This document shows, piece after piece, positions 11,060 to 32,656 of a stretch of 33,024 nt of DNA. The stretch covers positions 1 to 33,024 of the forward strand of contig JAFSVU010000052.1 in the NCBI GenBank assembly GCA_017444825.1, read 5' to 3'. The position numbers and the translations under genes are program-made. Position 1 is the stretch's first letter, and every line of letters begins with the position of its first letter. The notes beneath the pieces were generated by a model. It had not been told where the DNA came from, did no database searches, and saw only the letters and a program-made list of their open reading frames with translations. Source of the stretch: Clostridia bacterium (GTDB lineage Bacteria > Bacillota > Clostridia > UBA1212).

Positions 11060-11662
11060 ATGCCTGAAGAAACAATCAAAAACGAACCAATGCCGGAAGA
11101 GGAGAAGACCCCGGAAGAGCGTCCTTACGCGATCAACTTTACTTTTGTGACGCCCAAAACCAATGCGGAAGCCTCCTCGTTCATACTTCGCGGCCCCACT
11201 GTGACGTCGATTCTACTGGCTCTCTCTGGATTGTTTTCATTGGCGCTTATATTTGTGATCGGCTATATCGCAAAAACCGATCTCGGCTCCGTAACCAATG
11301 TAACAATGATGATAATCGCCGGGCTCCTTATCGTGATCGGGCTCTTTTCTCTTTTCCGGAATCTGCGCCTCCAAAAGGCCTATTCAGCAGGCGGCGAAAA
11401 CGATGCCTTCCGCAGAGTAACGCTCTTTTATGAGGACAGATTGTTTGTTGAAGCGGGCGTGGAAGATAAGACCGAATTTGTGGACGTCTCCGGGTTCGTA
11501 CGGAGCGCGGAGACAAAAAACCTCTACCTGCTCCTTTTCAAGGGCGAGAACAACACCGAGGTCTTTTATCTTTCAAAAGACGGTTTTGAATCTGAAGAGC
11601 AGAAGGAAGAATTCCTGAGACGCTTTTACCCGAAAAAGAAATTGGCCAAAGCGGACAGGTGA
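11060..11662 (+). CDS. Two-helix membrane protein with YcxB-like C-terminal domain
   Basis: A 200-residue protein of unknown function. An acidic N-terminal tail (about 40 residues) leads to a pleckstrin-like or YcxB-like pattern: two adjacent membrane helices (about residues 52-77 and 84-104) flanked by a short strand-rich segment before and a domain of about 80 residues after (VTLFYEDRLFVEA...FYLSKDGFESEEQKEEFLRRF). I infer YcxB similarity from this layout; it is not firmly recognised. AAAGGA precedes the ATG. It is the last gene of the plus-strand run. Its TGA stop is the last three bases of the first heptamer of the following tandem array. Confidence 0.75.
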   Translation: MPEETIKNEPMPEEEKTPEERPYAINFTFVTPKTNAEASSFILRGPTVTSILLALSGLFSLALIFVIGYIAKTDLGSVTNVTMMIIAGLLIVIGLFSLFRNLRLQKAYSAGGENDAFRRVTLFYEDRLFVEAGVEDKTEFVDVSGFVRSAETKNLYLLLFKGENNTEVFYLSKDGFESEEQKEEFLRRFYPKKKLAKADR

Positions 11663-11788
11663 CAGGCAACAGGTAATAGGTGATAGATAACAGGTAATAG
11701 GTAACAGGTAACAGGTAATAGGTAGCAGGTAATAGGTGTTAGGTGTTAGGTAATAGGTAATAGGTATCAGGTAATAGGTACCGGGTGT
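11656..11788 (+). repeat. Tandem heptamer array, 19 units of consensus YAGGTAA
   Basis: The stretch divides without a gap into 19 seven-base units. Most are CAGGTAA or TAGGTAA, with single-base variants such as TAGGTGT, CAGGCAA and TAGATAA. The first unit (CAGGTGA) contains the TGA stop of the preceding gene. A seven-base unit carrying TAA and TAG shifts frame each time, so stop codons appear in all three frames within a few units. Confidence 0.95.
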
Positions 11789-11801
11789 TGGAAATCAAGA
11801 A

Positions 11802-11855
11802 AAAAATGAGGTATTGTGGCATCATAAGAGATCCGCAAATACCTCATTTTTCTTT
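11802..11855. terminator. Bidirectional intrinsic terminator between convergent operons
   Basis: AAAAATGAGGTATT at 11802-11815 pairs with AAATACCTCATTTTT at 11837-11851. The stem is flanked by A-rich and T-rich ends on both strands, so it can stop transcription from nadE's side and from apgM's side. Confidence 0.85.
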
Positions 11856-11867
11856 ATTCGGCCTTGC

Positions 11868-12166
11868 ACCTATTACTTCTTACCTTTTACCTTGTGCGGC
11901 ACTCCCTCAAACTTTTACTTATTACCTTGAGCGGCACTCCCTTGCGCCAGCACCTCTTACCTTTTACTTATTACTTTGTCCGGCACCGCTCGCGTCTCGC
12001 ACCTTGCATCTCGTCACTTGGCTTCACTTCGTGAAGAATCGCTCCTCAATGAAACGTGGTCGACGTTGGCCCCTTTTACTTCTTACCTGTTACTTATTAC
12101 TTAGAGCGGCACTCCCTTGCGCCAGCACCTCTTACCTTTTACTTATTACCTTGAGCGGCACTCCCT
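11868..12166 (-). repeat. Composite heptamer/spacer repeat array after apgM
   Basis: On the minus strand this is the same repeat family: runs of GGTAATAAGTAAAAGGTAAG-like heptamers separated by AAGGGAGTGCCGCTCAA spacers, with the second copy of the 96-bp module at 11976-12071. The first spacer and heptamer encode the last residues and the stop codon of apgM (TAA at 12139-12141). No other gene is supported here. Confidence 0.85.
11976..12071. repeat. 96-bp intergenic repeat module, copy 2
   Basis: Matches 1887-1982 with one mismatch across 96 bp, in the same orientation and again embedded between heptamer blocks at a convergent gene boundary. Confidence 0.9.
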
Positions 12167-13380
12167 TTAACAAATCTCTCCATCAGCTTATCCCCTTTAG
12201 CCTGGTAAACACCTGTGGCTTTGGCAAATCTCTCGTCGTATTTCGCGCCTGGGTTTAACGGATACCTGGTGCGGCTGTCATATATGATGTACGGCACCGC
12301 ATCGTGGGTATGGGTACGGAGCACGAGAGGAGTGGGGTGGTCGGGAAGGACCAGCATCCTGAAATCCTCGCCCGCATCCTCAAGCATTTTGCAGAGGGGA
12401 CCTACGACGCGGCGGTCGATGTACTCGATGGCGAGGACTTTTTCTTTAACCTCATGTCTGTGGCCGCACTCGTCCGGCGCCTCCATGTGAATGTAAACGA
12501 AATCTCCTTCGTTTTTGAGGAAATCGAAAGCGGCCTTTGCTTTGCCTTCGAAATTGGTTTTGTAGGTTCCTGTGGCGCCTTCCACCTCAAGTACCTTCAT
12601 GCCTGCGCAGAGGCCTATGCCTTTTATAAGGTCCACGGCGGACACTACTGCGCCTTTAATGCCGAATTTCTCGGTAAAATTCGAAAGATAGGGCTTGCGT
12701 CCCTCGCCCCAGGGCCAGATGGAATTGGCGGGTCTCAGACCTTTTTCTCTGCGCTTGACGTTTACGGGGTGGTCGGAGAGAAGCTCGTAGCTCTTTTTCA
12801 TAAGGGCCAGGAGCTCGTCGTGCATGTAGCCTTTCGGAAGATGGTCGGTGATGGATTTACCCGAGATGTCGTGGGGCGGTGTGCAAAGGAGCTTTACGGT
12901 GCCCTCTGCTTTCATTACGAGGCAATGTCTGTAGCTGACGCCGGGGTAGAACCTGAGAATGTCGTTTCCCAGCTTTTCGTTAATGAAAAGCATAAGCTCG
13001 CGGGCTTCCTCAGTCGAGATCTCATCGGAGCTGTAGTCCTCCATGGTCAGGGTCTCGTAGGAGCCGCTGCCGCCGAGGGTCACGAGGTTGCATCTTATGG
13101 CAAGTTCATCGGGCTGAAGCTCTATGCCCATGCTCACGGCTTCCAAGGGGGACCTGCCGGTGTAAAACTCATCGGGGTCGTACCCGAGGACGGACATATT
13201 GGCGATGTCGCTTCCCGGAGGGTTCAGATGGTCCGGTACCGTTTTAACAAGGCCCAGCTCTCCGTATTCGCAGAGGCGGTCGATGTTTGGCTTGTTTGCC
13301 GTCATAAGCGGCGTTTTCCCGTCAAGCTCAGGCACCGGATAATCCGCCATGCCGTCGCCGAGAATAACAACGTATTTCAT
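12139..13380 (-). CDS. apgM: Cofactor-independent phosphoglycerate mutase, archaeal type
   Basis: Predicted to interconvert 3- and 2-phosphoglycerate in glycolysis. The alkaline-phosphatase-fold signatures of the ApgM branch are present: VILGDGMADYP at the start (D9 metal ligand), GSDIANMSVLGYDP with Ser57 as the probable phosphorylated residue, EAPDECGHRHE, and DHPTPLVLRTHTHDAVP as further metal-binding segments. At 413 residues its length fits. The start at 13380 lies two bases after the stop of the MutS-like gene. The final nine residues, KGSAAQGNK, are encoded by a unit of the intergenic repeat, so this tail is not native to the family. Confidence 0.93.
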   Translation of the reverse strand: MKYVVILGDGMADYPVPELDGKTPLMTANKPNIDRLCEYGELGLVKTVPDHLNPPGSDIANMSVLGYDPDEFYTGRSPLEAVSMGIELQPDELAIRCNLVTLGGSGSYETLTMEDYSSDEISTEEARELMLFINEKLGNDILRFYPGVSYRHCLVMKAEGTVKLLCTPPHDISGKSITDHLPKGYMHDELLALMKKSYELLSDHPVNVKRREKGLRPANSIWPWGEGRKPYLSNFTEKFGIKGAVVSAVDLIKGIGLCAGMKVLEVEGATGTYKTNFEGKAKAAFDFLKNEGDFVYIHMEAPDECGHRHEVKEKVLAIEYIDRRVVGPLCKMLEDAGEDFRMLVLPDHPTPLVLRTHTHDAVPYIIYDSRTRYPLNPGAKYDERFAKATGVYQAKGDKLMERFVKGSAAQGNK

Positions 13381-22315: not shown

Positions 22316-23533
22316 ATGGTTGATGTTTGCGGCGTAAGATTATCGCCAAACGGAAAGATATATTGGTTCGCCCCGGGTGACACAGGGGTGGAGGAAGGTG
22401 ACCTCGTAGTGGTTGAGACTGCCCACGGCAATCTCCTTGGCGAAGTCGTCCATCCGGTAAAACAGCTTGAAAAGTCGCCTGACGGGAGCGAACTGAAGCA
22501 AGTTTTAAGGATCGCGAGGGACGACGACCTCACAAGGGCCGCCGAAAACGAGGAACTGGCGAAGAAGGCCTTTGATATTTGCAGGGAGCTCATTGCCAAG
22601 CAGGGCCTCGAAATGAAGCTCTTCAAAACCGAATACAATCTGGAGAGATCGAAGGCTGTTTTTTACTACGTTTCCGAGCAGCGCGTGGATTTCAGAAACC
22701 TTGTGAAGGAACTGGCGCCCAGGATCAAGATCCGCATCGAGATGGTGCAGGTGGGCCCCAGAGAACACGCCAAGGCCATCGGAGGCATCGGCCTCTGCGG
22801 CAGGCAGTTCTGCTGTCAGGGCTTTATGACTACGTTCGGGCCGGTAACTATTAAGATGGCAAAGGATCAGGGCCTCACCAGCAACCCCACCAAGTATTCG
22901 GGCAGCTGCGGTAAGCTTCTTTGCTGCATAAGGCACGAGGAAGCCGCTTATGAATATGCCCACGGCATAATGCCCAAAAACGGCACGTTGATCATGACCG
23001 AGGACGGCCCCGGAAAGATCGTGGTCGTGAACATGCTCAAGGAGACCTGCACCGTTAAAGTGGGTCTTGAGCAGAATTTTGAGATCAAATCCTACGGAGT
23101 TGACCAGATAAGGGCTCTTACCGATACCGAAAAGGCCGAATACATGGCTCTTCGCAAGAAGGAAAAGGAAGAGATGGAGGCCGCCGAGGCCCAGCGCCGC
23201 GCAAGCAGAAACGATGATGAACGACCCCACTCTTCAGAACCCCGCGAGAACCGCGCCGAAAGGTCCGGTGACGAATCCGAAGTACAGGGAGAAAGAGGCC
23301 CGCGAACCCAAACGTCAGGCGAGGGCAGAAACCGCTCCGGCTCAAAAAGGCACAAAAGCGGAAAGAAGTCCGGCCAGAAGCAGGGCGCTCCAAGGCAGGA
23401 AACGCCAAGGGCTGACGCCGACCAGAACTCACAGCCGGGAGGCTCACGCCCGTCAGGCAAGAAACCGAACCGGAAGATCGGCCACGGGGGAAAAGGGCAG
23501 AGAGGGAACGGCAAAACCGAAGGTAAGAGTTAA
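22316..23533 (+). CDS. ricT: RicT (YaaT/PSP1) iron-sulfur regulator with long disordered tail
   Basis: The homologue in Bacillus joins RicA and RicF in an iron-sulfur complex that activates RNase Y cleavage and affects phosphorelay, sporulation and competence. Two cysteine clusters, GLCGRQFCC and GSCGKLLCC, match the conserved ligands. The protein is 405 residues against roughly 275 in Bacillus; the extra 120 residues after about 285 are Arg/Lys/Gly/Ser/Gln-rich and disordered (RNRSGSKRHKSGKKSGQ). Start ATG 22316 follows AGGAG. The last three codons and the stop (GGT AAG AGT TAA) already belong to the intergenic repeat. The holB-ricT order is conserved across Bacillota. Confidence 0.92.
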   Translation: MVDVCGVRLSPNGKIYWFAPGDTGVEEGDLVVVETAHGNLLGEVVHPVKQLEKSPDGSELKQVLRIARDDDLTRAAENEELAKKAFDICRELIAKQGLEMKLFKTEYNLERSKAVFYYVSEQRVDFRNLVKELAPRIKIRIEMVQVGPREHAKAIGGIGLCGRQFCCQGFMTTFGPVTIKMAKDQGLTSNPTKYSGSCGKLLCCIRHEEAAYEYAHGIMPKNGTLIMTEDGPGKIVVVNMLKETCTVKVGLEQNFEIKSYGVDQIRALTDTEKAEYMALRKKEKEEMEAAEAQRRASRNDDERPHSSEPRENRAERSGDESEVQGERGPRTQTSGEGRNRSGSKRHKSGKKSGQKQGAPRQETPRADADQNSQPGGSRPSGKKPNRKIGHGGKGQRGNGKTEGKS

Positions 23534-23854
23534 AGGGAGTGCCGCATATGTTTAAGCGGTGCCGGACAAGGTAATAAGTAAAAGGTAAGAGCTAAAGGGG
23601 GTGCCGCTCAGGTAATAGGTAATGGTTTGAGGGGTGCCGCCCAAGGTAACAGGTAATATGTAAGAAGTAAAAGGTAAGAGTTAAAGGGAGTGCCGCTCAG
23701 GTATGAGGGAGTGCCCCCAAGGTAACAGGTAATAAGTAAGAAGTAAAAGATAAAAAGTAAGAGGCGCCGAGGGGTGCCGCTCAGGTAATAGATAATGGTT
23801 TGAGGGGTGCCGCCCAGGTAATAAGTAATAGGTAAAAAAGTAAAAGGTTATAGG
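23521..23854 (+). repeat. Composite heptamer/spacer repeat array after ricT
   Basis: Plus-strand heptamers such as GGTAATAGGTAAAAG alternate with spacers of the type AAAGGGAGTGCCGCTCA and GAGGGGTGCCGCCCA. The array begins in the last codons of ricT. From 23855 to the promoter near 23950 I see no gene or further repeat. Confidence 0.85.
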
Positions 23855-23935
23855 AAAAAGTGACTTAGTCTTGGGTACCGCTATTATCAGCAGGTGCCCC
23901 TTGTTGTTCAGAAAACGTCTCACGATCTTGGGAAA

Positions 23936-24550: not shown

Positions 24551-24582
24551 GTTTTCAACGATATCCACAACATAAAGGAAAA

Positions 24583-24652
24583 TACCTATTACCTGTTACT
24601 TAATACCTATTACCTGTTACCTATTACCCTTTAGCTTTTACCTGACACCTTC
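24583..24652 (-). repeat. Tandem heptamer array, 10 units, abutting amidase stop codon
   Basis: Ten seven-base units (TACCTAT, TACCTGT, TACTTAA and variants on the plus strand) fill 24583-24652 exactly. The last unit overlaps the first base of the TAG stop of the amidase gene read from the minus strand. Confidence 0.92.
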
Positions 24653-26247
24653 TATTTTTTCCCCGTTTTCTTTTTCGGTTTGACGAACAGCATCAGTCCC
24701 ATGACGCCGAATATCAGGAACAGCGACGCGACGATTATTATTGCTATTGTGATCTCATTGGCTTTGTTGCCCTGATAGACAGGGTCGGGAGTTGCGTTCT
24801 GCTTTCCGGGCTCCTCGGATTCGGAGATGGACGGCGTTTCTGCTGAAGGCTCTTCGGTTTCGGGAGCTGTGGTGTCTTCAGGCGTTGCTGTCTCCGCCTG
24901 CTCAGGGGTAGGCTCGGGTGTTTCGGTGGGAGCTTCCGTTGGTGCCGGTGTGGGCGTGGGCGTCTCCTCCGGGGTGGGGGAGGGCGTGGGCGTGCTTGTG
25001 GGGGCAGGCGTTTGAGGCGCTGTGTTTGGCGCAATGCCTCCTTCGACTTCGCCGGCCTTGAAGGTTATCTCGTCTATGGAGAGGTCGCCGTCGTCCAGCA
25101 TGTCAAACTGGAAATAGTTGAATGCGCGCTTCCAGGTGGGGAGCTTTGTGAAGTCGAGGGTGTATTCCCGGTATTCTTCGCTTAAAACCACGTTGTAGCT
25201 GTATTCGAGCTCATTGGTTATGACGTCGTCGTTCGCGGTGTAAATGCGGAGGGTTGAGCCTTCCTTAGAGCCCTTCAGCCTTAGGATCACGTGTGTGAAG
25301 TCCTTGGTGTTTACGGCCATGCCCATGTAGTCGAGATAAACGGACGTTTTGCCGGATTTATTGGTGAAATTCGCATCGGTTGTGCCGGATATTTCGGTGC
25401 CTGAAAGGGGATAGAAAAGGGCCCTCAGATGGGGCTGTTCGAACTTGAGCGAGCGGGCGTCAATGGGTATCCTCACGGGGGCGTCATACGGTGTCTCCTT
25501 CGAAAGTCCGTAATATGCGGCTATGCCCTCGGCGATCTGCTTGCCCAAAGTGTCGAGCTTTTCGTCGGTGGAGAGGTAGTCCCTGACGTCGTCGGCATTG
25601 CTGATGAACACGCACTCGACCACGATGCCCGGAACGCCGGACCTGATGGAACGCATTACGATGCCGTAGTAGTCCTGAAGGGAGCCGTCTGGGTAGTAGG
25701 TGGTGTAGGTGGGCTGGTTTGCCATGGTGAGGAGAAGGCCGCGGTTCTTAAGGCCTATCTTCTGAAGGCTTGAAAGGATCGAGTTTCCCAGGTCCTGGGT
25801 GGCCTTGGTCAACTGAGGTCTGAATTTGCTGTTGGCGGCGCATATAAGGGAGCCCCTGATATCGGGTTCCGAAGCGTTGTTGTGGATGGAGACCACCACG
25901 TGGGCGCCGTTCCTTGTGGCAAACGAGACGCGCTGCGCAAGAGTCAGTTCCTCGTCTACAGTCTCTCTGGTCATGACGACCTGAACACCGGCGTATTCCA
26001 GCAGGTATTTTCTCGCAGCCTTGGCGATCTTTAGGTTGATGGGGTTTTCGTAATAAGCAATGCCGTCTACCGTGCTGCCTGCGCCGGAATCATTGCCGCC
26101 GTGCCCCGGGTCGAGGCATATCACAAGGTCCTGAGCGTTTGACTCTATAACCAATGCCACCGTGCCGAGCGCCAGAACACAGACCAATGCGATCAGAAAA
26201 GACGCGAGTTTTGCAGAAAATATCCGATTTTTGAGAGACCGTTTCAT
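24652..26247 (-). CDS. Membrane-anchored N-acetylmuramoyl-L-alanine amidase (Amidase_3), copy 1
   Basis: Zinc hydrolase that cuts the bond between MurNAc and the peptide stem. An N-terminal hydrophobic signal or anchor (about residues 14-35) precedes the amidase_3 domain: DPGHGG with H49, E67, SIHNNAS with H122, and catalytic E211 in VVECVFIS. A further strand-rich domain of about 150 residues (to about 405) could bind wall or sugar. A Pro/Thr/Glu-rich linker (about 410-475) and a C-terminal membrane helix with a KKKTGKK tail end the protein, so it is probably tethered at its C-terminus. AAAGGA precedes the ATG. It is a tandem paralogue of the next gene, each with its own promoter. Confidence 0.9.
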   Translation of the reverse strand: MKRSLKNRIFSAKLASFLIALVCVLALGTVALVIESNAQDLVICLDPGHGGNDSGAGSTVDGIAYYENPINLKIAKAARKYLLEYAGVQVVMTRETVDEELTLAQRVSFATRNGAHVVVSIHNNASEPDIRGSLICAANSKFRPQLTKATQDLGNSILSSLQKIGLKNRGLLLTMANQPTYTTYYPDGSLQDYYGIVMRSIRSGVPGIVVECVFISNADDVRDYLSTDEKLDTLGKQIAEGIAAYYGLSKETPYDAPVRIPIDARSLKFEQPHLRALFYPLSGTEISGTTDANFTNKSGKTSVYLDYMGMAVNTKDFTHVILRLKGSKEGSTLRIYTANDDVITNELEYSYNVVLSEEYREYTLDFTKLPTWKRAFNYFQFDMLDDGDLSIDEITFKAGEVEGGIAPNTAPQTPAPTSTPTPSPTPEETPTPTPAPTEAPTETPEPTPEQAETATPEDTTAPETEEPSAETPSISESEEPGKQNATPDPVYQGNKANEITIAIIIVASLFLIFGVMGLMLFVKPKKKTGKK

Positions 26248-26452: not shown

Positions 26453-28120
26453 TCAGCTCTTGCGGTCAGGATTATTGTTATTGTCGTAACCGTCAAGGTT
26501 GTGGCCGGTGTAGCTGTAATCGGAGAAGTTGTTTCCGCCCTGGTTATAGCCGTTATTGTAGCCCTGGGGCGTGACGGGAGGCCTTGTGTTGTTATCCTCG
26601 GGAGGAGGCGCGGCCTTTTTCTTCTTTAGCACTACGATCAGGATCACGACACCTGCGCCGACGAGGAGGAGAACTGCCACGATGACGACAATGGGTATCA
26701 GAAGCGCGAGAAGGGTCGCATTGCCGGGTGTAGGCTCATGTTCCGGGATCGGTTCGGGTGTCCAAGTGTTTTCCGGAACGGCTGTAGGCTCGGGGGTAAT
26801 CACTATCTCTTCCGTGGGCTCTGGCGTGGGCGCCTCAGTTGGCTCAGGTGTGGGCGTCGGGGTCGGCTCAGGCGTCGGGGTGGTGTAGTCGGGGTTCGGG
26901 GCTATGCCGTTTACGACATTGCCGCTTTTGAAGGTCAAATCCTCGATCGTGAAGTCGGTGCCGCTCAGCACGTCAAACTGGAAATAGTTGAATGCGCCTT
27001 TCCAGGTGGGGAGCTTTGAAAGATCCAGCACATAGTCCTGATATTCCTCCGAAAGGAGCATGTCATAGCTGTAGACGACGTTATTGGTTATTACGTTGTC
27101 ATTGGCGGTGTAGATGCGGAGCCTTGTGCCGTATTTTGAACTCTTCATCCGCAGGACCACGTGGGAATAATCGCTTGTTTCGACGGACATTCCGAAATAG
27201 TCAAGGAAGACCGAGGGCATATTGCCGCTTGTATTGGAGATGACTGCCTCATTTTCGCCGGTAACCGTGGTGCCGTTGTAGGGGTAGAAAAGATCTCTTA
27301 TGTCCTGTCTGTTAAAGACCAGGTGGCTGGAATCGATGGGAAGCTTCTCCGGCGCGTCGTATGCGTAATAATACGAGAGCTTGTAGTAGTTTGCGATGCC
27401 TTCTGCGATCCGCTTGCCCATCTGGTCGAGCTTGTAATCAGAGGAGAGGTAGTTCCTGCAATCGTCGGGATTCGTTATGAAGGAGCATTCGCAAATTACA
27501 CCCGGAATGCCCGCACGTTTACTGCGCATTACGATGCCGTAGTAGTCCTGAAGAGATCCGTCCGGATAGTAGGCTGTGTAGTTCGGAAGCTTTGCCATGG
27601 TTCCGAGAAAGCCCCGGTTCTGAAGGCCCAGTTTTGAAAGTGCTTCCAAAAGGCAGTTTCCGAGAGCGTGCGTCTCTTTTGTGAGCTGAGGTCTGTAGTC
27701 GCTGTTTGCGGTGCATATGATGGTGCCGCTGTACTCCGGATCGGAGGCGTTATTGTGTATCGAAACAAGGCAATGGGCGCCGTTCTTTGTCGCAAATGAC
27801 ACTCTCTCGGCAAGGGAAGGGTTCTCCGCCGTGGTCTCCCTCGTCATGATGACCTTGACGCCGGGATATTCAAGCAGATATTTTCTGCACGCCAATGCGA
27901 TCTTCAGGTTCAGCGGATTTTCATAATACTCGACGCCGTCCACCCAGTTTGAAGCTCCTTTTTCATCTCCGCCGTGGCCCGGATCGAGGCAGATCACCAG
28001 CTCCTGAGCATTGGATCTTACGACCAGCGAGAACATGCTCACAAACAATACACAAACCAATGCGATGCAAAAAGCGCCGAGCTTATGCCGCCCGACCGGC
28101 TTGTTGGAAGCCTTTTTCAT
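26453..28120 (-). CDS. Membrane-anchored N-acetylmuramoyl-L-alanine amidase (Amidase_3), copy 2
   Basis: Paralogue of the preceding amidase, collinear with it: H49, E67, H122 and E211 fall at identical positions. It has the same N-terminal hydrophobic segment, the same middle domain and a Pro/Thr/Glu linker. A longer C-terminal membrane helix (about residues 475-500) follows. It differs by a cytoplasmic tail of about 50 residues rich in Asn, Gly, Tyr and Pro (PQGYNNGYNQGGNNFSDY), absent from copy 1. AAAGGA precedes the ATG. Duplicated cell-wall amidases may divide labour between division and remodelling; this is an inference. It has its own promoter and terminator. Confidence 0.9.
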   Translation of the reverse strand: MKKASNKPVGRHKLGAFCIALVCVLFVSMFSLVVRSNAQELVICLDPGHGGDEKGASNWVDGVEYYENPLNLKIALACRKYLLEYPGVKVIMTRETTAENPSLAERVSFATKNGAHCLVSIHNNASDPEYSGTIICTANSDYRPQLTKETHALGNCLLEALSKLGLQNRGFLGTMAKLPNYTAYYPDGSLQDYYGIVMRSKRAGIPGVICECSFITNPDDCRNYLSSDYKLDQMGKRIAEGIANYYKLSYYYAYDAPEKLPIDSSHLVFNRQDIRDLFYPYNGTTVTGENEAVISNTSGNMPSVFLDYFGMSVETSDYSHVVLRMKSSKYGTRLRIYTANDNVITNNVVYSYDMLLSEEYQDYVLDLSKLPTWKGAFNYFQFDVLSGTDFTIEDLTFKSGNVVNGIAPNPDYTTPTPEPTPTPTPEPTEAPTPEPTEEIVITPEPTAVPENTWTPEPIPEHEPTPGNATLLALLIPIVVIVAVLLLVGAGVVILIVVLKKKKAAPPPEDNNTRPPVTPQGYNNGYNQGGNNFSDYSYTGHNLDGYDNNNNPDRKS

Positions 28121-30687: not shown

Positions 30688-31338
30688 TTATCGTTTCGCG
30701 AACTCATCGATTTCCTTTTGCAGTAAACGGAAAACATTCGCAACCAGGTAACCGTCGGCAATCGCATGATTCATTCGGACGGTGACAGGCATCATAAACC
30801 TGCCGTTTTCTTCACGATACCTGCCCCAATTGACGATGGGCGGAAAATACAGATAACCGTCCGGCAGTTCAATGTTAAGCGAATCATAGGAAAGCCATGA
30901 AATGTAGGACGCATCAAACCAGTTCGGATACTTTTTATTGTCAAACGTATAATCGCGGCTTTTCTTTGCCTCCTCCAGATCGGCAAGCGCGTTCTTGTAA
31001 AAGGTGCTGTAATCCTCGCAGTACAGGGAGTGAACAGTTGTGCATGTTTCAGTGTCCTCATGGAACACGTAATGGCACGGATTGATAACGTCGTAGCAGA
31101 TCAACTCGTCCGAGTTATAAAGGTAATCCATCTTATAGTCGTCGCGGGAGTTAAGCACTTTTGAAAGAAGATACAAAAAATTCAAGTAAAACTTCGTATC
31201 CGTCTTTTTTGAGAAACCAATGAGCTCCGTAACATCTATCCCGGCAGTCATGGACGTCGAGCACTTGCAGTCTTCTGTGAAATGACGGTAAACCCCTTTT
31301 CTGTAATACGTTTCTTTGTCAATAATCTTGTAGTTCAT
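30688..31338 (-). CDS. CatA-family chloramphenicol O-acetyltransferase-like protein
   Basis: The 216-residue length and overall sequence match type A (trimeric) chloramphenicol acetyltransferases, which transfer acetyl from acetyl-CoA to the drug. The active-site motif HHxxxDG appears as NHAIADG: the catalytic His191 and Asp195 are kept but the first His is Asn. IVNWGRY and FHEDTETCTTVHS are also family-like. Start ATG 31338 follows GGGGGAA; the reading frame upstream of it runs through a terminator and repeat and is not coding. Many gut genomes carry such relatives that may act on other substrates, so resistance is not assured. Confidence 0.82.
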   Translation of the reverse strand: MNYKIIDKETYYRKGVYRHFTEDCKCSTSMTAGIDVTELIGFSKKTDTKFYLNFLYLLSKVLNSRDDYKMDYLYNSDELICYDVINPCHYVFHEDTETCTTVHSLYCEDYSTFYKNALADLEEAKKSRDYTFDNKKYPNWFDASYISWLSYDSLNIELPDGYLYFPPIVNWGRYREENGRFMMPVTVRMNHAIADGYLVANVFRLLQKEIDEFAKR

Positions 31339-31381: not shown

Positions 31382-31405
31382 CCATTGCCGCAGGATTTAT
31401 GCCAT

Positions 31406-31436
31406 AAAAAAAAGACCCCGTGAAGGAGTCTCTTTT
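31406..31436 (-). terminator. Intrinsic terminator after repeat copy A
   Basis: On the minus strand AGACTCC, a 5-base loop and GGGGTCT (one G-U pair) are followed by eight T. It lies a few bases beyond the CCA end of the 140-bp repeat. Confidence 0.75.
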
Positions 31437-31438
31437 CG

Positions 31439-31578
31439 TGGCGGAGATGGAGGGATTGCGTCGGCGCAAGTGCCGACGACTCCGTTTTCCAAGACATTTT
31501 TTGTCTTTTTCTTGGAAAACTCCGTTTACGTCACTGCACCTCCTTTACCCCAAAAGTGCAAGCACTTCCGGGGGCCCC
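31439..31578 (-). repeat. 140-bp tRNA-Ser-capped inverted repeat, copy A
   Basis: Identical, in inverted orientation, to 32469-32608 except for one base. Its downstream end is the 19-bp sequence AATCCCTCCATCTCCGCCA, which is the 3' end of both tRNA-Ser genes. It contains several hairpins (AAGTGC-GCACTT, TTTTCCAAGA-TCTTGGAAAA, GTCGGC-GCCGAC) and GGAGGTG, which could pair with CATCTCC like an acceptor stem. It has no D, anticodon or T arm, so it is not a working tRNA. Confidence 0.92.
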
Positions 31579-31643
31579 TCTCTTTCGCGATCTCGGCTGC
31601 AAATCATCCACCGGAGGATTTGCTTAACGCCTCGACCCTCTCG

Positions 31644-31657
31644 GGTCCGAATCCCCG
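31644..31657 (+). repeat. Inverted copy of the tRNA-Ser(GCU) T arm
   Basis: GGGTCCGAATCCC on the plus strand repeats, in opposite orientation, the T arm of the minus-strand tRNA-Ser(GCU), including its own loop variant TCCGAAT. It lies beyond the hairpin that follows the tRNA. Confidence 0.65.
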
Positions 31658-31666
31658 TTAGTTTTA

Positions 31667-31708
31667 CACAGATAAAGGGACACCGCAAATGGTGTCCCTT
31701 TATCTGTG
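31667..31708 (-). terminator. Perfect 18-bp hairpin directly after tRNA-Ser(GCU)
   Basis: CACAGATAAAGGGACACC (31667-31684) and its exact complement (31691-31708) with a six-base loop; the stem includes the CA of the tRNA's CCA. No clear T-run follows on the minus strand, so it may be a processing signal rather than a true terminator. Confidence 0.55.
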
Positions 31709-31798
31709 GCGGAGATGGAGGGATTCGGACCCTCGCGCCAGTTGCCCGACCTACACCCTTAGCAGGGGCGCCCCTTCGACCAGCTTGGGTACATCTCC
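31707..31798 (-). tRNA. tRNA-Ser (anticodon GCU)
   Basis: The acceptor stem GGAGATG pairs with CATCTCC. The anticodon stem CGCCC/GGGTG holds the loop CTGCTAA with anticodon GCT (plus-strand 31761-31763 AGC), a long variable arm follows, and the T arm is GAGGG-TCCGAAT-CCCTC. CCA is encoded. It reads AGC and AGU codons. Confidence 0.95.
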
Positions 31799-31812
31799 AA
31801 TGTCGCCCGCTA

Positions 31813-31841
31813 AATATATCAAAAAAGGCAAAATGCGTCAA
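31813..31841 (-). promoter_or_regulatory. Promoter of tRNA-Ser(GCU)
   Basis: On the minus strand TTGACG (31836-31841) and TATATT (31813-31818) are 17 bp apart, about 15 bp before the tRNA 5' end. Confidence 0.75.
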
Positions 31842-31856
31842 GCACTATTTTGGTTA

Positions 31857-31885
31857 TTGAAAGGGCCGTTGCTTTTTTGTAAAAT
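31857..31885 (+). promoter_or_regulatory. Promoter of the small 31941 gene
   Basis: TTGAAA (31857-31862) and TAAAAT (31880-31885) are 17 bp apart and diverge from the tRNA-Ser(GCU) promoter. Confidence 0.65.
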
Positions 31886-31940
31886 GACTAAAATTGCGTC
31901 GGAAGACCGATGCATATACCATTGGCGCCGGAGGTTTCCC

Positions 31941-32207
31941 GTGAAAGCTGAAGATTTCTGGAAGACATACAATTCGATTTATAAGAAGTTTGAGTATACC
32001 GGTTTCAGAGCCGTGGACAGGCCTGTGGATCCGTTGTCGAAGTATTTTGAGGAAGGGCTTTTCCAAAACGACAATGGCACCTGGTGTGTAGAGGAGACGT
32101 CCGAAAAAGGCAAGGCACCTTTCCATTGGGAATTCGGCACCGAGGATGAGGCTGTAGATACAGTGCTCCGGGAATGCGAAGGCAGAAAAAAGCTTGCGTA
32201 TCAATGA
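31941..32207 (+). CDS. Small unknown protein between divergent tRNA-Ser genes
   Basis: An 88-residue acidic protein starting at GTG with GGAGGT five bases upstream and a good promoter, so I regard it as real. It starts VKAEDFWKTYNSIYKKFEY and is rich in aromatic residues; residues 55-75 (GKAPFHWEFGTEDEAVDTVL) suggest a strand-helix end. I do not recognise the family. Small size, solitary position and repeat-rich flanks resemble orphan immunity or accessory genes, but this is only an impression. Confidence 0.7.
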   Translation: MKAEDFWKTYNSIYKKFEYTGFRAVDRPVDPLSKYFEEGLFQNDNGTWCVEETSEKGKAPFHWEFGTEDEAVDTVLRECEGRKKLAYQ

Positions 32208-32252
32208 GTCTGTGAATTCTCCCCAAATGCTCAAGTGTAACCAAAAAACCGC

Positions 32253-32281
32253 TTGAAAACAAAACGCCAATGTGTTATCAT
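32253..32281 (+). promoter_or_regulatory. Promoter of tRNA-Ser(GGA)
   Basis: TTGAAA (32253-32258) and TATCAT (32276-32281) are exactly 17 bp apart, about 25 bp before the tRNA. The spacer contains an ACGCCAATG word. Confidence 0.75.
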
Positions 32282-32305
32282 CACTTCTGCGTTATTTTAA
32301 CGCTT

Positions 32306-32397
32306 GGAGATGTCGCCTAGTTGGTCGAGGGCGCGCGACTGGAAATCGCGTAAACCACACCATGGTTTCGAGAGTTCGAATCCCTCCATCTCCGCCA
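32306..32397 (+). tRNA. tRNA-Ser (anticodon GGA)
   Basis: The acceptor stem GGAGATG/CATCTCC, an anticodon loop CTGGAAA with anticodon GGA (32340-32342) and a long variable arm are present. The T arm GAGAG-TTCGAAT-CCCTC has one A-C mismatch. CCA is encoded. It reads UCC and UCU codons. Confidence 0.95.
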
Positions 32398-32437
32398 CGA
32401 ATAACGGGACGGTCTTTTCAGACCGTCCCGTTATTCG
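32398..32437 (+). terminator. Perfect 17-bp hairpin directly after tRNA-Ser(GGA)
   Basis: CGAATAACGGGACGGTC (32398-32414) and its exact complement (32421-32437), then TTTCCC. It is the counterpart of the hairpin after tRNA-Ser(GCU), with unrelated stem sequence. Confidence 0.65.
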
Positions 32438-32448
32438 TTTCCCTTCAG

Positions 32449-32467
32449 GATGGAGGGATTCGAACTC
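32449..32467 (-). repeat. Inverted copy of the tRNA-Ser(GGA) 3' region
   Basis: On the minus strand GAGTTCGAATCCCTCCATC repeats 32372-32390 of the upstream tRNA perfectly over 19 bp, in opposite orientation, with the same T-loop variant TTCGAAT. Confidence 0.85.
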
Positions 32468-32468
32468 G

Positions 32469-32608
32469 GGGGCCCCCGGAAGTGCTTGCACTTTTGGGGT
32501 AAAGGAGGTGCAGTGACGTAAACGGAGTTTTTCAAGAAAAAGACAAAAAATGTCTTGGAAAACGGAGTCGTCGGCACTTGCGCCGACGCAATCCCTCCAT
32601 CTCCGCCA
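32469..32608 (+). repeat. 140-bp tRNA-Ser-capped inverted repeat, copy B
   Basis: Inverted copy of 31439-31578 with one mismatch. It ends in AATCCCTCCATCTCCGCCA (32590-32608), a direct repeat of the last 19 bp of tRNA-Ser(GGA) 211 bp upstream. No open reading frame in it looks like a gene. Confidence 0.92.
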
Positions 32609-32614
32609 TCAAAG

Positions 32615-32656
32615 AAGCCTCTTTTGTCTACTAAGGCAGGAGAGGTACTTTTTTAT
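32615..32656 (+). terminator. Probable terminator after repeat copy B
   Basis: CCTCT and AGAGG can pair around an 18-base loop that itself holds GCCT/AGGC-type complementarity, followed by TACTTTTTT. Confidence 0.45.

Follow-up and report, generated by a model that had tools for sequence, protein, structure and literature searches.

Short, noncoding, hairpin-rich repeats of the MITE, REP, REPIN and BOX kinds occur in many copies per genome and are presumably moved in trans. The units described here resemble them in being short, hairpin-rich, multicopy and free of coding sequence, with a presumed mobilisation in trans; however, the form of unit termed module A stands strictly at the 3' end of tRNA genes, has a conserved structure of several helices and forms tandem arrays, and the units are bounded by target-derived sequence, with a copy of the target at the right end and its T-arm, inverted, at the left. 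Islands that integrate into tRNA genes (phages, ICEs), and their satellites, share with the units the T-loop-to-CCA segment and the outcome of an intact tRNA with a distal copy of its end. Dissimilar from these islands, the units have no integrase gene, measure ~140-200 bp, contain a folded body with compensatory changes and occupy nearly all isotypes. Integron attC arrays are likewise tandem arrays at one anchor in which a single strand folds and structure is kept while sequence varies; in contrast, no link of the units to an integron integrase was seen, they contain no cassette genes, and their sites derive from the neighbouring tRNA. The structured RNAs of Rfam, finally, share covarying helices, a GNRA-type loop and a sense-strand bias with the units, but neither module matched Rfam 15 at gathering score, and a comparison of the window with Rfam at E up to 5 returned only tRNA and chance matches. 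Each of these nearest known kinds has a defining feature that the units lack, and we know of no family whose ends are matched to whichever tRNA adjoins. No description of the units was found in the open-access literature; subscription papers lay outside this search, so a prior description is possible.

The window (the whole stretch of DNA analysed, 33,024 nt) contains two tRNA-Ser genes predicted by ARAGORN, one on each strand, whose common 3' end is AATCCCTCCATCTCCGCCA (19 nt, exact). A first-pass annotation had reported that this segment recurs past both genes, and exact copies were indeed located there; the distances of 268 bp (GCU) and 211 bp (GGA) that it gave hold as start-to-start spacings, but not as gaps, which are 249 and 192 bp. 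Alignment confirmed that both units end in the same core, with the distal segments 31439-31578 (minus) and 32469-32608 (plus) forming a 140-bp inverted repeat with one mismatch (139/140), and that a different terminator follows each. Exact 19-mers together with near-identity over 140 bp inside 33 kb lie far beyond chance. The units, at ~140-200 bp, have no coding room, in agreement with the earlier remark that an integrase gene could not fit. Beyond these points, a hairpin directly after each CCA, inverted copies of the T-arm and a second module in the GCU unit (31579-31657) were detected. The features of the two units are as follows.

31707..31798, minus strand: tRNA-Ser(GCU), host of the first unit (ARAGORN; Rfam 49.9 bits)
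31667..31708, minus strand: perfect 18-bp hairpin straight after the CCA of tRNA-Ser(GCU), terminator-like with a weak T-run
31643..31655, minus strand: inverted T-arm copy of tRNA-Ser(GCU), GGGATTCGGACCC, the 'guide' strand of P1/P2
31579..31657, minus strand: left part of module A, with the guide, the GNRA hairpin P2 and helix P3/P4
31458..31578, minus strand: module B (the 121-bp core), with hairpin H1 and the long interrupted hairpin H2
31439..31457, minus strand: distal direct repeat of the 3' end of tRNA-Ser(GCU), from the T-loop to the CCA
31404..31438, minus strand: ordinary terminator past the distal copy, GACTCC..GGGGTC followed by T8
32306..32397, plus strand: tRNA-Ser(GGA), host of the second unit, with an A.C mismatch in the T-stem
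32397..32438, plus strand: perfect 19-bp hairpin straight after tRNA-Ser(GGA)
32449..32467, plus strand: inverted copy of the T-arm and acceptor edge of tRNA-Ser(GGA), GATGGAGGGATTCGAACTC, 19/19
32468..32589, plus strand: module B, second copy, with H1 at 32474-32499 and H2 at ~32507-32586
32590..32608, plus strand: distal direct repeat of the 3' end of tRNA-Ser(GGA)
32609..32656, plus strand: ordinary terminator

The inverted-repeat pair of the GCU unit is GGGTCCGAATCCC / GGGATTCGGACCC. Its module A part was matched by R1, the model of module A, at 31569-31657 (59 bits, E 1.9e-12) and is 94% identical to the module A query, while the remainder of module A is replaced by module B; the latter was matched by the module B model, R2, at 31459-31578 with 124.5 bits, although this copy was used in R2 training. 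A hairpin similar to the terminator at 31404..31438 follows tRNA-Ala(CGC), and terminators similar to the one at 32609..32656 stand past the last copy of the orthologous array in a same-genus genome (G003) and past a tRNA-Asn of the home genome (G000). The T-arm of the tRNA-Ser(GCU) gene in the window, GGGTCCGAATCCCTCC, is unlike that of its relatives, GAGTTCAAATCTCTTC, and the gene has its 3' end in common with tRNA-Ser(GGA), which suggests a conversion between the two tRNA-Ser genes of the home genome.

Other features of the window were also recorded. A gene with a chloramphenicol acetyltransferase-type domain (PF00302) lies directly downstream of the GCU unit at 30688-31326 (minus). Arrays built of degenerate 7-nt units (TTACCTA / AGGTAAT type) occur in both orientations at 1709-2032, 11628-12171, 23520-23857 and 24581-24679, interspersed with GGGCGGCACCCC-like palindromes, and two adjacent paralogous N-acetylmuramoyl-L-alanine amidase genes (Amidase_3) at 24652-26247 and 26453-28120 (minus) have blocks of 71-84% identical DNA in common.

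The 121-bp core, seen at first only beside the two tRNA-Ser genes, recurs in the home genome (56 contigs, 2.45 Mb) in 9 copies by BLAST and 11 by covariance model, mostly beside tRNA genes. The BLAST loci adjoin Ser, Ala-GGC, Ala-CGC, Gln-CTG, His and Met tRNAs, with the exception of a single locus without a tRNA of its own, ~1.9 kb past tRNA-Val(CAC). At that locus (L055, 840-2860, contig C45), a module A unit stops after P4, and a hairpin and module B follow ~1.8 kb on; the interval holds an HTH/sigma-70-like gene and a putative membrane protein gene. A covariance model detected 38 tRNA genes in the home genome, of which ~8 are occupied; the others are followed by an ordinary terminator or, at a short distance, by a further tRNA gene. 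Same-genus genomes carry modules at Ser, Ala, His, Val, Gln and Lys tRNAs, including the tandem array at Ser-GGA in G003. Empty sites, which an origin by insertion had led the first-pass annotation to look for, were found as well: the tRNA-Ser(GCU) gene has a unit in the home genome and a plain terminator or no unit in three relatives (G001, G003 and G009).

Alignment of module B (A5) revealed two hairpins, one containing a conserved G.U pair and the other long, interrupted and with compensatory changes, and the window copy at 32468..32589 has a fold z of -3.7. The R2 model matched 60 of the 291 class genomes compared, often in many dispersed copies, and outside the home genus module B is not confined to tRNA genes. 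At several loci of other families (L209, L211, L215, L222), a reversed module B abuts the CCA end of tmRNA, tRNA-Ala or tRNA-Met genes. We regard module B as another structured repeat, of wider dispersal than module A, which it replaces or nests inside in the home genus.

Module A proved to be widespread; the sequence inspected consisted of stretches around tRNA genes and matches. Its 132-nt query retrieved relatives across the order and the class, and R1 matched 78/391 sampled Clostridia genomes, representing 51/222 genera; outside the class, matches were present in 3 of 299 genomes drawn from the phylum, and the loci inspected were also beside tRNAs. In order, a unit comprises the tRNA, a terminator, the T-arm of that tRNA in inverted copy, a hairpin that is often of the GNRA type, a body that covaries, the 3' end of that tRNA in direct copy, and a terminator. 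Among the 91 R1 matches examined, 69 follow a same-strand tRNA or tmRNA gene at a distance of at most 600 nt, and 59 start 12-120 nt (mostly 40-60) past its end; several of the matches without a nearby tRNA are cut by a contig end or stand behind an integrated element. The host genes of module A cover nearly all isotypes as well as tmRNA (L100 in G001, L150 in G141). A unit-like element in G116 (L174, 1209-1318) lies in reversed orientation, and its end matches the 3' end of a gene that we take to be rpsI from its C-terminal sequence.

Tandem arrays of units were observed at five loci (L019, L136, L140, L142 and L179), and their ends often hold shortened remnant units, as if entry occurred at the tRNA and old units decayed. 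In three of the arrays (L140, L142 and L179), the units are near-identical. Such arrays are what one would expect of static, ancient repeats with no present mobility, whose likeness is kept by gene conversion and unequal crossing-over, and the 139/140 identity of the two window copies of module B, as recent conversion would give, and the single 3' end of the two home-genome tRNA-Ser genes, against a different T-arm in the tRNA-Ser(GCU) of relatives, fit that account also. However, presence and absence of units differ between relatives, and units with matched ends stand at unrelated tRNAs, so we regard a purely static origin as very unlikely.

An alignment of 14 module A copies (A1) was used to examine the fold. 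Helix P1 is predicted to pair the inverted T-arm with the directly repeated 3' end of the tRNA; P2, a hairpin of three pairs, has a GAGA or GTGA loop in 13/14 copies; and P3/P4, P5 and P6 were located in the body. P2 tracks the tRNA, such that a T-stem GAG (Ser-GGA, tmRNA) is accompanied by the P2 sequence CTC-GNRA-GAG. Covariation in A1 was not reached by any of 500 shuffled alignments, and all slid controls fell below it; the one exception among five measures was the number of further pair types, which was reached by 11/500 shuffles. In a larger alignment of 91 distinct sequences (A2), two-sided changes were present in 41/43 pairs, although pair counts are inflated by the fitting of A2 to the model; the covariation of A2 was 0.52, compared to 0.16 in shuffled and at most 0.064 in slid alignments. 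Compensatory base changes, as expected of a structured RNA, were above controls, and module A has a fold z of -6.0. The strict GNRA loop is kept in the home order but in only part of the distant copies (28/71, by a crude automatic call). Non-Watson-Crick cells outside the training copies were biased toward G.U (177, versus 33 A.C) and G.A (120, versus 21 C.T), and although a model-fitted alignment favours G.U somewhat, this bias indicates that the tRNA-sense strand is the folding strand. Altogether, these data suggest that the folded molecule is most likely RNA; single-stranded DNA, however, could yield the same covariation and mismatch bias.

The conserved, strand-specific structure and the position of the units close to a tRNA on the same strand also raise the question of a host function, namely a regulatory or processing RNA linked to the tRNA that tunes its maturation or stability. 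According to this explanation, a read-through transcript would fold, the inverted T-arm could pair with the T-arm of the tRNA, and the copy of the 3' end would keep the inverted T-arm occupied. It is also in favour of such a function that the match extends over the complete T-arm and so takes in the 5' T-stem strand, which lies outside the distal copy. We nevertheless consider a host RNA unlikely, as the set of occupied tRNAs varies from relative to relative and takes in tmRNA and almost every isotype, arrays decay, a terminator precedes each unit, and most tRNAs of one genome are without a unit, as the ~8/38 of the home genome illustrate. The related proposal of the first-pass annotation, a tRNA-like RNA capped with CCA, found no support in that form, because the body is not a tRNA and the distal copy lacks CCA where the tRNA encodes none (L126).

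The ends of the units were then compared with their own and with other tRNAs in 71 units. The 22-nt distal copy agreed with the adjoining tRNA at ~18.8-18.9/22 positions, compared to 11.9 for other tRNAs, and the inverted T-arm agreed at ~14/15 positions, compared to 11.6. This T-arm match spans the whole T-arm, 5' T-stem strand included, although that strand is absent from the distal copy. Bodies at different tRNAs of one genome resembled each other more closely (0.74) than did bodies from different genomes (0.63), the best pair being the Leu(gag) and Ser(gga) units of G222 at 96% identity; the 22-nt ends displayed the opposite trend, with 0.53 within a genome and 0.65 at the same tRNA in different genomes. 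Unlike that of a MITE, the terminal inverted repeat (P1) is not the element's own sequence but that of the neighbouring tRNA, and it changes with the tRNA. The duplicated segment measures ~19-22 nt, or ~65 bp including the terminator at two loci (L134 and L126). Because T-arms are alike, the guide needs few changes to suit a new tRNA, and either templating at insertion or later selection could give the match.

Two further interpretations of the ends were considered and rejected. Reading the inverted copy as a primer-binding site of the retroviral type fails because the acceptor/CCA part is usually unconserved, and an island-style replacement of the tRNA 3' end is not indicated by T-stem mismatches, which were present in 9/64 occupied and 6/80 unoccupied tRNAs (p 0.27, not significant). 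T-stem A.C mismatches were noted in occupied tRNAs at 32306-32397 of the window and at L019, L092, L004, L026, L055 and L123.

An enzyme linked to the units was sought in the positive genomes. No match to the reverse transcriptase family PF00078 was obtained in 7/16 of them, including the finished genome G400, and a reverse transcriptase is consequently not required; on the same ground, a self-splicing intron, a retron and a group II derivative were rejected. Tyrosine recombinase genes (PF00589) number only 1-2 in each of G000, G003, G384, G300 and G237, and counts this low in several positive genomes speak against a dedicated integrase; a phage-type integrase was likewise not apparent in several of them. 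G000 has two and G003 has one, with Xer-like products at L195 and L197, and the single G003 gene is Xer-like; the second G000 recombinase (L196, 283 aa) has a similar counterpart in G300 (L201). No mobility enzyme linked to the units was found, nor any excised form, junction or strict orthologous pair of filled and empty sites with conserved downstream flanks.

The T-loop-to-CCA identity is nonetheless a classic attachment core, and the units could be satellites or att remnants of tyrosine integrases, that is, tRNA-end segments that prophage or ICE integrases mobilise in trans or that departed islands left behind. At two related loci (L142 and L137), a tyrosine integrase gene ends just before a copy of the tRNA 3' end and units follow, and in a viral contig (L203) a unit lies beside an att-like end. 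The first-pass annotation had proposed a search for an integrase whose island uses the same 19 bp, and at these two related loci integrases do use such tRNA ends; the home genome has only two tyrosine-recombinase genes, one of them Xer-like. The suggestion of integrase-island remnants or satellites made in that annotation is borne out in part, by the core lying beside other tRNA genes and by the empty sites, whereas the covarying body, the tRNA-matched inverted T-arm, the arrays and a presence in ~20% of the sampled Clostridia are unexplained by remnants. The folded body covaries across the class; integrase cores are fixed to one tRNA, which leaves the spread over different tRNAs of each genome unexplained; recombinases are very few in G000, G003, G384 and G300; and the phage and plasmid collections gave no unit match for the queries tried. 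An integrase origin accordingly appears improbable to us.

The explanation that we favour, with moderate confidence and on the evidence of sequence comparison, is that the units are small non-autonomous elements of Clostridia that insert site-specifically where tRNA and tmRNA genes end (3') and act through a folded strand. Location, structure, matched ends, arrays and presence or absence are seen in the sequences themselves, whereas mobility, transcription, the order of insertion and the role of the pairing are deduced from them. An element of the proposed family comprises the ~140-bp unit and the flanking repeat, and since the tRNA segment from T-loop to CCA, often along with the terminator, stands on both sides of the unit, the tRNA remains intact. 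The arrival of a new unit at the T-loop would duplicate the 3' end of the tRNA and push outward the units already present, which would then decay. The folded strand may be an RNA made in one transcript with the tRNA when the first terminator is read through, although the terminator before each unit makes transcription uncertain. Pairing of the inverted T-arm with the tRNA T-arm presumably matters, either for target choice or for holding a structure at the site, and would account for the T-arm match being kept; the enzyme would be supplied in trans. However, it should be noted that the similarity of bodies within a genome could come from gene conversion, and that simple circle integration, in a move from one tRNA to another, would give chimeric tRNAs. 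More specifically, the units may be gene-less mobile elements whose folded RNA or single-stranded DNA finds its site by pairing, the inverted T-arm being a guide matched to the tRNA or tmRNA, with insertion or later adaptation rewriting the guide and both ends for each new tRNA; this version we put forward only tentatively, as one possibility.

An uncatalogued structured family beside tRNA genes in about one fifth of the sampled Clostridia would add a large class of sequence that is now unannotated in rumen and other Clostridia, and its matched ends allow the host tRNA to be predicted from the unit alone. If pairing guides insertion, the units would represent a new means of target finding by elements that carry no genes; if the units instead act on the tRNA, they would represent a new layer of tRNA control.
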